Assembly: GCF_012524075.1 (NCBI RefSeq)
Contig: NZ_JAAZUI010000024.1
Coordinates: 1-37,628, forward strand
DNA: 37,628 nt
Direction of reading: 5' to 3'
Origin: Lutibacter sp. B1
Lineage (GTDB): Bacteria > Bacteroidota > Bacteroidia > Flavobacteriales > Flavobacteriaceae
Part shown: piece by piece, positions 17,014-34,679 of the stretch
How positions within the stretch are numbered: the stretch's first letter is position 1
How the letters are laid out: each line of letters opens with the position of its first letter
The notes under the pieces: generated by a model
Seen by the model: the letters and a program-made list of their open reading frames with translations, nothing else
Told to the model about the DNA's origin: nothing
The model's database searches: none
Made by a program: the position numbers and the translations under genes

Positions 17014-17045
17014 TAGTAGTATAGAAAAGTGTTGTCCCCCCGAAG

Positions 17046-17492
17046 TTGAATAAAAATGAAAAACAGGATGAGTTAAGCTTACCTAATTATACGATAGAGA
17101 ATATATTGTATACAGGTAACTGGATGAATGAAAAATTTTCAGATCATTTAAAACTATATGCCTTATCTATTCAACAGTATCAAGTTTTACGTTCATTGAG
17201 AGAGTTAAAAGGTGAACCTGCAGACCTTCAAACTTTACAAGCCGAAATGGTAAGTAAAAATAGTAATACAACAAGGTTGGTTGAAAAGTTACGATTGAAA
17301 GGTTTGATTACTAGAATTCAAAATGAAATAAATAGGAGGAAGGTAGATATAAGAATTACAGAAGCTGGTTTACAATTATTAGCTGAGATAGATATGATAC
17401 AGGAACAATTTGAAAATGATGTTGTGAAAAATTTATCAAACAGTGAATTATTAACTCTAAATAAATTATTGGAAAAAATTAGAAATAAATAA
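17046..17492 (+). CDS. MarR family transcriptional regulator
   Basis: The 148-residue protein has the MarR winged helix-turn-helix: LSIQQYQVLRSLRELKGEPA, then the recognition region EMVSKNSNTTRLVEKLRLKG and the wing RRKVDIRITEAGLQLL. The start is taken as TTG 17046. An in-frame TAG lies upstream, the next in-frame Met (WMNEKF) would remove the first dimerisation helix, and the ATG four codons in is out of frame. The leader carries a CCCCCC run just before the start. No obvious target gene is adjacent; the next certain + strand gene is 590 bp away. Confidence 0.85.
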   Translation: MNKNEKQDELSLPNYTIENILYTGNWMNEKFSDHLKLYALSIQQYQVLRSLRELKGEPADLQTLQAEMVSKNSNTTRLVEKLRLKGLITRIQNEINRRKVDIRITEAGLQLLAEIDMIQEQFENDVVKNLSNSELLTLNKLLEKIRNK

Positions 17493-17515
17493 GTCAACCC
17501 CAAGCTATGATTGTT

Positions 17516-17556
17516 CTTTAAGTGGTGTTTTTCACCCCAAAATTCACCACTTAAAG
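17516..17556. repeat. Perfect 12-bp inverted repeat with a CCCC centre
   Basis: CTTTAAGTGGTG (17516-17527) and CACCACTTAAAG (17545-17556) enclose a 17-nt loop whose middle is CACCCCA, with CCCC at 17535-17538, the exact centre of symmetry. No T-run follows on either strand, so it is not a normal terminator of the MarR gene. It shares its C4 centre with the larger palindromes downstream. Confidence 0.6.
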
Positions 17557-17621
17557 AGAATCTAAAAATTAAAAGTAAGAATTAAATAATTAAAAATTAA
17601 TGAAAAAGTAAGTATAACATT

Positions 17622-17721: not shown

Positions 17722-17820
17722 AAAATAATTAAATTAAGAAATAGATAAATAAATAAATCAACTCAAACCAAGCCAAAACCCCAAAAACATGAGTTATTCA
17801 TTATTAACAATTATCCCCCT

Positions 17821-17882
17821 TGCTGTTATGTTCTATAACAGCACGTTTCAAAGCAGGATCAGTTACTCAATAACTTTGAAAC
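17821..17882. repeat. Two consecutive hairpins in a doubtful reading frame
   Basis: TGCTGTTAT (17821-17829) and ATAACAGCA (17835-17843) form a perfect 9-bp stem with a 5-nt loop, preceded by CCCCC at 17816. Directly after it GTTTCAAAG (17845-17853) pairs with CTTTGAAAC (17874-17882). An ATG frame (17789-18013, 74 codons) runs through them, but dense palindromes and lack of protein character speak against coding. Confidence 0.55.
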
Positions 17883-17960
17883 AACTATATACTATAGATT
17901 TAATGTGTATTGAACTGTTAAGTTTAATAAATCATTTTAAATCCATATATATTAGTAAAG

Positions 17961-18030
17961 GCAGCCGTACTATATTTATTAAAAACACTTGTTCCCCACA
18001 ACGGTTTATGTAAATAAATATTGCGGCTGC
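17961..18030 (+). repeat. 70-bp palindrome, C4-centred family, copy 1
   Basis: GCAGCCG with ATATTTATT on the left (17961-17980) mirrors AAATAAATATT and CGGCTGC on the right (18012-18030) almost perfectly. Inside, AAAC, TTGT, loop TCCCC, ACAA and GTTT complete a hairpin along the whole element. CCCC (17994-17997) is at its centre. It lies 48 bp upstream of the CAP-domain lipoprotein gene. Confidence 0.7.
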
Positions 18031-18078
18031 TATTTTTATATTAAAGTCTAACCCCAAATTATAAAAAACCCCACTCTC

Positions 18079-18573
18079 ATGAAATCAATGAAATTTAAAC
18101 TAGTATATTTTGTATTAGTAGGAATTTTACTTACCTCTTGTTCAAAAGAGGATGATGGAATTTATTTTGATGAAATTGCCGAAGTAGAAGTTGAATATTC
18201 AGCAATTGAGTTGGAAATATTTGATCTTATAAATGAGTATAGAGAATCAATAGGTGTAAAACCTTTGGAAGCTTTAAACATCATTTCATCAGTAGCTGAA
18301 TCGCATACTGAATATATGATTGAAGTTGGACAGATTAACCATGATTTTTTTGCTGAAAGACAAGAAAATTTAGTTAAAAAAGCAAATGCAAAAGCTGTTG
18401 GAGAGAATGTTGCTTATGGTTATAGTACTGCTAGAGGAGCGGTTAATGGATGGTTGAATAGTGATGCTCATAGACGATTGATCGAAAAACCACAATATAC
18501 ACATTTTGGAATTTCTACAGAACAAGATTCTAAAGGAAGAAATTTTTTCACTCAAATGTTTATAGAGCGCTAA
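18079..18573 (+). CDS. CAP/SCP-domain lipoprotein
   Basis: The 164-residue protein has a lipoprotein signal (LLTSC, lipidated Cys21) followed at once by SKEDD, a charged sequence like the surface-export signal of flavobacterial lipoproteins. The rest is a bacterial CAP domain: EIFDLINEYRESIGVKPLEA, HTEYMIEVGQINHDFF, VGENVAYGYS, GWLNSDAHRRLIEKPQYTHFGIS. Histidines 94-95-region (NHDF) and the HRR segment correspond to the family's conserved cleft. Function in bacteria is unclear (protease-like or adhesive roles are discussed). Start 18079 is used; Met4 is an alternative. The leader has two CCCC runs. Confidence 0.88.
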   Translation: MKSMKFKLVYFVLVGILLTSCSKEDDGIYFDEIAEVEVEYSAIELEIFDLINEYRESIGVKPLEALNIISSVAESHTEYMIEVGQINHDFFAERQENLVKKANAKAVGENVAYGYSTARGAVNGWLNSDAHRRLIEKPQYTHFGISTEQDSKGRNFFTQMFIER

Positions 18574-18593
18574 TTTTTAAACCCCACATTATT

Positions 18594-18737
18594 ATGATTT
18601 TAGTTAAAGAAAAGAAAAGAAACGGTATTATAAAAAAAGTAAAAAGAATTTACATAAATACCTTAGTTCCATTTTTTGAATATAGAAACAAAAAAGGAGA
18701 AATTGTAAGACCTATAAAATGTAGTGTTTTATTATAA
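18594..18737 (+). CDS. Small basic hypothetical protein (47 aa)
   Basis: An ATG-started frame 20 bp after the lipoprotein gene encodes 47 residues rich in Lys/Arg, with KKVKRIYINTLVPFFEYRNK and the ending VRPIKCSVLL. Its leader, accccacattattATG, resembles the CCCC-containing leaders of the MarR and CAP genes. There is no signal peptide or known motif. The regular charge pattern and the tight spacing suggest a real gene, but length alone cannot prove it. Confidence 0.4.
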   Translation: MILVKEKKRNGIIKKVKRIYINTLVPFFEYRNKKGEIVRPIKCSVLL

Positions 18738-18754
18738 AAATTAAGATAGAAAGC

Positions 18755-18770
18755 TGTTGTCCCCACAATA
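18755..18770 (+). repeat. Solitary core of the C4-centred palindrome family
   Basis: TGTTGTCCCCACAATA contains the small hairpin TTGT-CCCC-ACAA. Outer arms are poor (GTTTTATT at 18726 against AATAAAAAC at 18767), so it may be a decayed copy partly overlapped by the next element. Confidence 0.45.
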
Positions 18771-18773
18771 AAA

Positions 18774-18846
18774 ACAATAGTAAAAATCTATTTTTAAATG
18801 TCGTCCCCATAACGATAATAGTATAAAAAATAGATGATAGTTACTG
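18774..18846 (+). repeat. 73-bp palindrome, C4-centred family, copy 2
   Basis: ATCTATTTTT (18786-18795) and AAAAATAGAT (18826-18835) are perfect arms; weaker pairing continues outward (ACAATAGT against AGTTACTGT). The centre reads TGTCGTCCCCATAACG with CCCC at 18805-18808. Confidence 0.6.
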
Positions 18847-18892
18847 TAAAAAAAATATATGTGAAAGATTGATATTTTGTTAATCTCATAAA

Positions 18893-18967
18893 AAAACAGT
18901 TGCAAATATCTTTTAAGTGTCGTCCCCACAACGGTAGTATTAAAGATTTTTATTTTACAACTGTTTT
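18893..18967 (+). repeat. 75-bp palindrome, C4-centred family, copy 3
   Basis: AAAACAGTTG (18893-18902) and CAACTGTTTT (18958-18967) are perfect ends; ATCTTTTAA (18908-18916) faces TTAAAGAT (18940-18947). The centre is TGTCGTCCCCACAACG (18918-18933). Confidence 0.68.
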
Positions 18968-18990
18968 CTTAAAACACATGTGCTTCCAAA

Positions 18991-19063
18991 ACAGCCGCAA
19001 TTTACTTGAAAAAAAACTGTCGTCCCCACGATAATTTCTTTATTGTACAAGTATTACGACTGT
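18991..19063 (+). repeat. 73-bp palindrome, C4-centred family, copy 4
   Basis: ACAGCCGCAATTTACTTG (18991-19008) mirrors CAAGTATTACGACTGT (19048-19063) with two mismatches and a 2-base bulge. The centre is TGTCGTCCCCACG. The end sequence ACAGCCGCAAT is nearly that of copy 1. From here to 19250 no further gene or hairpin is apparent. Confidence 0.65.
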
Positions 19064-19250
19064 AATCTTTGTATCAAATATAATAATATTGTTAAAAGAT
19101 TAAAAATTTGTGAACTTTTTTTGGAATTGTAAAATTATACTATAGGATTTATAATTCCAACTTTTTTGTCTTTTATTTTTTTTTGTATCGAAATAGTAAA
19201 TAATATATGCCTTTATTTTAATTTTGGGTTTATAAAAATTTTGTACAAAT

Positions 19251-33895: not shown

Positions 33896-33921
33896 TGTTT
33901 TTCCCCACAATAAGAAAAACA
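33896..33921 (+). repeat. Hairpin TGTTTTTC/GAAAAACA with CCCCACA in the loop
   Basis: Perfect 8-bp arms (33896-33903, 33914-33921) enclose the rest of CCCCACAATAA; CCCC is at 33903-33906. Confidence 0.55.
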
Positions 33922-33962
33922 TATCTAACATAAAAGTATGATATTCTGTCCCTACCAGAAAA

Positions 33963-33982
33963 TTGATATACCCCAATATCAA
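33963..33982 (+). repeat. Hairpin TTGATAT-ACCCCA-ATATCAA
   Basis: Perfect 7-bp stem with a 6-nt ACCCCA loop and CCCC (33971-33974) exactly at its centre. Further ACCCCA motifs follow at 33992, 34005 and 34019. Confidence 0.6.
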
Positions 33983-34148
33983 ATGTATTATACCCCAACA
34001 AAACACCCCAAGAAAAATACCCCAGTTTGTTTTAACATCAAGGCTAAAATTATTTAGATATAATTTATTAGTAATTTAAATTAATCAAGTTAATGAACTT
34101 TCATAGTTCATACTAGTATATTGAATTCTACTATAAATAATTAATACT

Positions 34149-34679
34149 ATGGAAAATAATTACTCTTCACATAAATTATTGTATTTAATAAGTAAGATTT
34201 TCATCTTTCTTATAATCTCAACCAATACATTTAACAGTTTTTCACAAAATTCAAAATGTAAGGCTAAGCTCGATGTTCACGATAATATAAAGAGCAAAAG
34301 AGCTGGTATTTCAGGCACATCATATATGCTATTGTTAACTAATACAGGTACTGAAAAAACTACATTCGATATAGAGGTTATAAATATGATAGCTGAAAAT
34401 AAATCCAATAATCACAACAATGAGATAAAATTAAAAAACGACTTATTAGATTTCAATTTAAAAAAGATAGCCCAAAAAAAAGCTTTAATAAATGAAAATT
34501 CAAATTCTTCAATATTATTAGCTAAAGGTGAGGTTTTTAAATTTTATGTAAAAGTTAACGTACCAGAGGAAGCCAAATTTGGAAGTAAAAATAAAACTAA
34601 AGTGATTATAACCTCAAAGGAGTGCGAAAAATTTTCGGTAAGTACAATTTTAAATACAGAAATTATTGATGGTGAATAA
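34149..34679 (+). CDS. Secreted beta-domain protein of unknown function
   Basis: The 176-residue protein has a signal-like N-terminus (hydrophobic residues about 13-28, ending NSFSQ) followed by one Ig-like beta domain: SGTSYMLLLTNTGTEKTTFD and then GEVFKFYVKVNVPEEAKFGS with KVIITSKEC. The TNTG...F.V.V.VP pattern is that of NEW3/DUF11-like extracellular domains. A pair of cysteines (about residues 37 and 163) might form a disulfide. It lies 59 bp upstream of the giant adhesin gene, suggesting a shared transcript. Confidence 0.65.
   Translation: MENNYSSHKLLYLISKIFIFLIISTNTFNSFSQNSKCKAKLDVHDNIKSKRAGISGTSYMLLLTNTGTEKTTFDIEVINMIAENKSNNHNNEIKLKNDLLDFNLKKIAQKKALINENSNSSILLAKGEVFKFYVKVNVPEEAKFGSKNKTKVIITSKECEKFSVSTILNTEIIDGE

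Follow-up and report, generated by a model that had tools for sequence, protein, structure and literature searches.

The long palindromes around a surface lipoprotein gene of Lutibacter sp. B1 are real and belong to one family, which very probably is an RNA family folding on the minus strand. Its members may be genes, or 3'-terminal gene parts, of small regulatory RNAs, and the chances are roughly even that these act through GGGG-loop hairpins on translation starts tagged with CCCC. We computed the family, its folding strand and conservation, a promoter-like motif, the enrichment of CCCC near start codons, and the complementarity to the starts of MarR genes.

Hairpin elements and their distribution

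The window analysed here is a whole contig of 37,628 nt (NZ_JAAZUI010000024.1, C112 in our numbering) from a 3.4-Mb draft assembly of 194 contigs. All four palindromes that an earlier note on this DNA had described were found where it had placed them, and each matches our covariance model as a GGGG-loop hairpin of the minus strand: element 1 at 17961–18030 (E = 5.1e-4), the weaker element 2, with a decayed outer stem, at 18774–18847 (E = 1.4e-4), element 3 at 18893–18967 (model match 18896–18964, E = 4.3e-12), and element 4 at 18991–19063 (E = 1.1e-5). A fifth core, beyond the four of that note, adjoins element 2 at 18753–18768 (minus strand; GCTGTTGTCCCCACAA in plus-strand letters) and has no long arms; in several other species, short cores of this kind likewise precede the main hairpin. 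Element 1 is located directly upstream of a CAP-domain lipoprotein gene and overlaps the 3' end of a small ORF (17789–18013). On the minus strand, element 3 is followed by a U-run, and by eye each of the hairpins runs into a T-rich stretch. Folded as plus-strand DNA, the elements have z scores of -4.58 (17955–18036), -2.70 (18768–18852), -3.22 (18887–18973), and -1.78 (18985–19069), with 0, 2, 1, and 11 of 200 dinucleotide shuffles equalling the fold, that of element 4 being weak. The corresponding minus-strand values are -3.57, -2.53, -3.15, and -2.67, equalled by 1, 3, 3, and 0 of 200 shuffles.

The covariance model (R1) was built on 37 diverse copies. It finds six copies in the draft genome itself, namely the four of the window, one at C42:97002-97079 between thrC and an OmpA/PD40 gene, and one at C150:100223-100299 between a CAP lipoprotein gene plus tiny ORF and an OmpA/PD40 gene. 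At E <= 0.1, R1 matches 36 of 37 genomes of the genus Lutibacter (including that of strain B1) and none of 23 other genomes of the order, and in a family-wide draw at E <= 0.001 it matches 4 of 199 genomes: strain B1, a further Lutibacter, and single genomes of two different genera. The 17-base core with at most one mismatch gives a similar picture (36 of 38 genus members, strain B1 included, vs. 0 of 62 other genomes). When up to four mismatches are allowed, the core was collected at 134 unique sites in AT-rich loci, some of them chance matches in unrelated genomes; 56 of the 134 have both matched ends. The shared ends noticed earlier hold across these 56 elements, where one of the outer pairs reads CG in 34 copies and TA in the other 22, both sides having changed cleanly. 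Further copies were thus found and changes in their arms compensate, which removes the local coincidence of AT-rich sequence that the earlier note had kept in view. Rfam 15 gave no match over the gathering threshold in the window or in nine related loci, in line with the remark that no known family fits.

Genomes carry 1–10 copies in the same few syntenic gene neighbourhoods, which does not support the suggestion of mobile REP- or MITE-like palindromes. These sites are MarR-[CAP]-F14-elements-thioesterase (the locus of the window), M3 peptidase or CAP/F14-element-OmpA, thrC-element-OmpA, gcvP-two elements-pdhA, and CAP-F14 followed by short cores. The single orientation seen within the window is genuine, and among the 56 elements the left-hand gene lies on the plus strand of the element in 49 of the 52 cases with a visible left neighbour. 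Two loci (L037:5028-5552 and L008:1267-1726) contain tandem duplications with three copies each of units that by eye span about 230–266 bases and seem to comprise the 3' tail of ompA and an element.

The strand that folds

The arms do keep pairing between copies, as the earlier note had seen, and many mismatches that read A.C on the plus strand become legal G.U wobbles when the minus strand is read. The hairpins it had proposed therefore stand, and its strand and C-rich loop do not, since the wobbles favour the minus strand, on which the loop reads GGGG. The earlier interpretation is to that extent partly supported. In the first ten outer pairs of the 56 elements, 50 plus-strand A.C pairs (G.U on the minus strand) contrast with 7 plus-strand G.T pairs, under an end pattern that is symmetric, admitting identical letters in either arm. 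The first nine outer pairs in 22 copies of the 18991 type comprise 155 Watson–Crick, 43 G.U, and no A.C pairs when read on the minus strand. Minus-strand single-stranded DNA would give the same wobble asymmetry as RNA.

On the minus strand, 96.0% of the cells pair in the 37 diverse copies, which reach a covariation score of 0.286 compared to 0.167 after shuffling, with none of 500 shuffles as good. Three of five measures lie beyond all 500 shuffles, indicating a conserved single-strand structure with compensatory change, while pairs altered on both sides (6 vs. 4.1; 41 of 500 shuffles) and further pair types (15 vs. 13.0; 37 of 500) are near chance. The plus strand gives the lower fold at only 24 of the 134 core-bearing sites. 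Within the window, the tandem pair at 18886–19124 folds well as minus-strand RNA (minimum free energy -55.1, z = -4.10, 0 of 200 shuffles as good) and less so as plus-strand RNA (-37.3, z = -1.47, 19 of 200). Taken singly as DNA, elements 1–3 fold no better on the minus than on the plus strand and only element 4 favours the minus strand, so that individual copies from the window leave the choice undecided. A plus-strand hairpin with a CCCCACA loop was also considered, with which C-G, A-T, and T-A changes beside the loop are equally compatible; it was rejected because the outer-stem wobbles, the fold of the tandem pair, and the promoter-like motif favour the minus strand.

The predicted small RNA and its promoter-like motif

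Each unit would be one long hairpin. Its outer stem of 7–10 bp (GCAGUCG...CGGCUGC or ACAGUUG...CAACUGU) would have a U-rich stretch after it, its middle would be variable and AT-rich, and its apex conserved as ACUACC-GUUGU-GGGG-ACGAC. In the window, two such hairpins in tandem, element 4 first and element 3 second, would form one predicted small RNA of about 235 nt running from 19124 to 18887 on the minus strand, both of its ends being estimates and its fold that with a z score of -4.10.

Upstream of the two hairpins, at 19130–19160 on the minus strand, lies a conserved motif, TTG-N20-TAnnTTTA, which from its sequence is a candidate promoter. The pattern TTG-N18-22-TAnnTTT[GA] occurs on the minus strand in all 26 stretches compared at this locus, and 9 of them also have it on the plus strand; shuffling yielded a mean of 1.0 and a maximum of 4 (mononucleotide) or a mean of 1.4 and a maximum of 5 (dinucleotide) of the 26. 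The -7 consensus of Flavobacterium is given as TAnnTTTG (PMC9723704), and the Lutibacter box ends in A instead of G. At gcvP–pdhA, three of the five loci displayed have TATTTTTG on the minus strand ahead of the two hairpins. For the elements beside ompA, the gap between stop codon and element is mostly too short for a promoter of their own.

CCCC tags and predicted pairing at MarR starts

The gene for a MarR-family regulator (148 aa; 17046–17492, plus strand; Pfam MarR E = 1.3e-8) is a predicted target. The predicted pairing site, AAGTGTTGTCCCC, occupies 17027–17039 on the plus strand, directly before the TTG start, and opposes GGGGACGACACTT over 13 letters with one G.U. A plus-strand hairpin with a CCCC-bearing loop can be read 3' of the gene (17511–17562), a stretch also covered by a weak Rfam match; by eye, CCCC between complementary arms follows the MarR gene in 6 of 10 other species displayed. 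The MarR promoters contain a conserved inverted repeat, TTGTATATACA-TTTGA-TGTATATACAA, which is probably the MarR operator.

CCCC lies no more than 60 nt from the start codon in 21 of 22 MarR genes and 31 of 35 CAP genes, compared to 4 of the 357 remaining ORFs in these loci, the tag having first been noticed in the window and counted afterwards, among orthologues that are not independent. Among these four is a lipoprotein-like ORF that precedes the triple element in L. citreus. Predicted pairing of the apex UAUACUACCGUUGUGGGGACGACAAUU with the MarR leaders has a median of -23.7 vs. -8.0 kcal/mol, placing all 22 of them under the 1st percentile of the 361 other leaders. With five mononucleotide shuffles of the apex, 0 to 5 of the 22 fell below the 5th percentile, and none of 100 dinucleotide shuffles equalled the real MarR median. 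Complementarity to translation starts therefore exceeds chance at MarR, and at CAP it does not extend beyond the G-run. Five of the six MarR-start duplexes displayed contain a 13-pair run.

Among 21 MarR homologues from 17 genomes without the element, about 13 of which by eye have the same leader type, none has CCCC within 90 nt. Of the two genomes outside Lutibacter that carry the element, G040 has CCCC and G188 has TCCC immediately ahead of the MarR start. In element-less genera, MarR leaders already carry AATTGTTGT-like letters in the apparent MarR operator, and only the CCCC is new; one such leader (G039) scores -21.2 kcal/mol with the apex. Cognate and foreign pairs of small RNA and MarR leader are equally strong (-28.1 vs. 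-28.0 in 18 genomes), lending no support to coevolution.

The CAP lipoprotein, the F14 peptide, and further tags

The second predicted target, the CAP-domain lipoprotein gene (164 aa; 18079–18573, plus strand; Pfam CAP E = 4.4e-17), has a leader with two CCCC tags that ends at the start codon (18050–18078, plus strand). CAP leaders pair with the real apex at -11.4 and with the reversed apex at -11.9, and 5 of 100 shuffles are as good; thus, only GGGG:CCCC counts at CAP. In element-less genera, CCCC is found within 60 nt in 5 of 18 CAP loci, three of the five lying more than 50 nt from the start, which makes the CAP contrast weaker than the MarR contrast. In G040, which has the element, one CAP paralogue lacks the tag.

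The tiny ORF at 18594–18737 (plus strand; 47 aa) belongs to a peptide family, F14, with the motif YINTLxPxF in an alignment of 24 sequences, and may be a target in the genome of strain B1, where its leader carries the CCCC tag AACCCCACA at 18580–18588 on the plus strand. The family has 111 relatives at E <= 0.01, and every entry that names an organism names Lutibacter. Among nine longer members, six have CCCC within 60 nt of the start. In a wider list, including one spurious match and one sequence without a leader, CCCC is present within 35 nt in only 9 of 41, which makes it doubtful that F14 is targeted beyond a few lineages.

In the entire genome of strain B1, CCCCACAA occurs at 37 sites compared to 28 for the reversed word, and 20 of the 30 sites read fall inside ORFs. 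A double CCCC before ATG was tried as a genome-wide signal and rejected; with 189 sites in 13 genomes against 220 for the reversed pattern, the tag is no genome-wide signal. Upstream of an ORF at 34149, the region 33898–34023 of the window contains five CCCC runs, two of them in small hairpins (TTTTTCCCCACAATAAGAAAAA and GATATACCCCAATATC), which by its sequence makes it a further candidate target.

Proposed mechanism and alternative explanations

In the mechanism that we propose, the GGGG loop together with the arm that follows it would pair with CCCC tags beside start codons, forming a 13-pair duplex at the MarR start and a shorter GGGG:CCCC contact in CAP leaders. Flavobacteria are described as lacking Shine–Dalgarno sequences (PMC9723704); because the start-side stretch would be covered in such an organism, ribosome entry would be blocked, making repression the likely sign. 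A few nearby messages, those of the MarR regulator and the surface lipoprotein, would thus be controlled at translation. Transcription, pairing in the cell, and repression are what we infer from the computed features. The folds of single copies, the score of the G039 leader, and the low count of tagged F14 leaders each slightly reduce our confidence in this mechanism and in the address code described below. The minus-strand hairpins could also terminate transcription.

The elements might instead be DNA operators of the MarR protein, their core GTTGT-N4-ACAAC resembling the TTGT-ATAT-ACAA promoter repeats and their long arms being incidental. Repeats like TTGTATATACA..TGTATATACAA and GTTGT half-sites do occur in MarR promoters, including those of element-less genera. 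Most cores, however, are asymmetric, 34 of the 37 copies showing U.G when read on the minus strand, and the outer stems covary far from the core. Furthermore, most sites are located 3' of genes and not in promoters, CAP leaders have CCCC without half-sites, and G019 and G036 retain one element without a close MarR orthologue, leaving this explanation rather unlikely.

We likewise regard it as unlikely that the elements are bidirectional terminators or stabilisers of mRNA 3' ends whose loop is conserved by chance. By eye, they have the hairpin and subsequent U-run of an intrinsic terminator on the minus strand, their left flanks are A-rich and their right flanks often T-rich, and 28 of the 56 elements lie between converging genes. 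Yet a terminator has no need of an invariant apex of about 20 letters, which this reading leaves unexplained, and 18 of the 56 elements lie between two plus-strand genes; the tandem copies downstream of a minus-strand promoter-like motif also argue against it.

Repeated hairpins with an invariant loop would also suit a system in which an RNA-binding protein is titrated by the G-loop hairpins or binds the CCCC tags, with no pairing between RNAs. A precedent would be RbpB, a global RNA binder in Bacteroides (PMC11697453). As the Watson–Crick fit of the apex to MarR starts would be unexpected here, we judge this explanation improbable.

A resemblance to attC recombination sites folding as bottom-strand single-stranded DNA extends to the tandem copies and their one orientation after genes. 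In attC sites, a variable centre lies between conserved end boxes, whereas here the centre is invariant, as are three letters at each end. The sites are, moreover, few and syntenic, unlike an integron array, and the integron integrase (TIGR02249) exceeds its cut-off in none of 40 genomes, so that the recombination sites once suggested can be set aside as very improbable. Matches below the cut-off, found in 39 of the 40 genomes, also occur in 14 of 14 control genomes and thus are ordinary tyrosine recombinases.

A second G-loop hairpin

In addition to the minus-strand family, a second kind of G-loop hairpin is found on the plus strand (GGGAAG..UGUAAGGGGUUACA..CUUCCC); 16 of 37 genus members have it, compared to none of 23 other genomes, and a reversed control gave 0. 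Of the 13 places displayed, one is coding, and C cores lie upstream of 10 of the remaining 12. The loop fits AACCCC in CAP leaders, with 31 of 35 of these below the 5th percentile of other leaders. Hairpins of this family, with the GTAAGGGGTTAC loop, were seen at loci L070, L071, L075, L102, L152, and L155, as well as L156, L158, L160, L162, and L163, mostly downstream of short CCCC cores. Two tandem terminator-like hairpins at L250 and L251 (G000:C129:175835 and 175997), 162 bases apart, have CCCCACAA in each apical loop and are not among the R1 matches.

Returning to the GGGG-loop small RNAs, a tentative extension of the proposed mechanism is a lineage-specific address code, in which several unlinked RNAs of both kinds would read CCCC tags by loop–loop kissing. 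A small regulon (MarR, the CAP lipoprotein, and some F14 peptides) would bear these tags in its leaders and in hairpin loops, and the code would possibly substitute for Shine–Dalgarno-directed antisense control.

Significance and comparison with known systems

Should the proposal hold, the elements would constitute a previously unreported RNA family with ready candidate targets in bacteria without Shine–Dalgarno sequences, and it would bear on how antisense RNAs locate translation starts in such organisms. The G-loop/C-tag code would be directly testable by exchange mutations. The family would also illustrate that palindromes resembling mobile repeats can be RNA genes and that wobble asymmetry alone reveals their strand. 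A literature search joining Lutibacter with sRNA returned no paper, and among the titles listed by related searches there was nothing on this family.

RNAIII of Staphylococcus aureus is a hairpin-loop antisense RNA, and both RNAIII and LhrC of Listeria direct C-rich loops against G-rich Shine–Dalgarno sites. The multicopy sRNA LhrC (PMC4132741) and RNAIII (PMC2837412) act on mRNA leaders, as proposed for Lutibacter, where the polarity would be reversed to a G loop against a C tag. Within the Flavobacteriaceae, Rfp18 of Flavobacterium psychrophilum is presented as an sRNA with one stem-loop and several secreted-protein mRNAs as predicted targets (PMC9723704). It is reported there to be conserved in the genus Flavobacterium (PMC9723704), and its likeness to the Lutibacter RNAs is one of description. 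FopS/GibS of Bacteroides thetaiotaomicron are likewise a paralogous sRNA family of the Bacteroidota and bind near start codons and block translation of surface proteins (PMC11697453). The seed of FopS is a single-stranded 5' stretch before the terminator hairpin, in contrast to the GGGG loop at the hairpin tip proposed for Lutibacter (PMC11697453). By analogy, the Lutibacter RNAs would work like such a sibling sRNA family, but with a G tetraloop as the seed and C as the tag.
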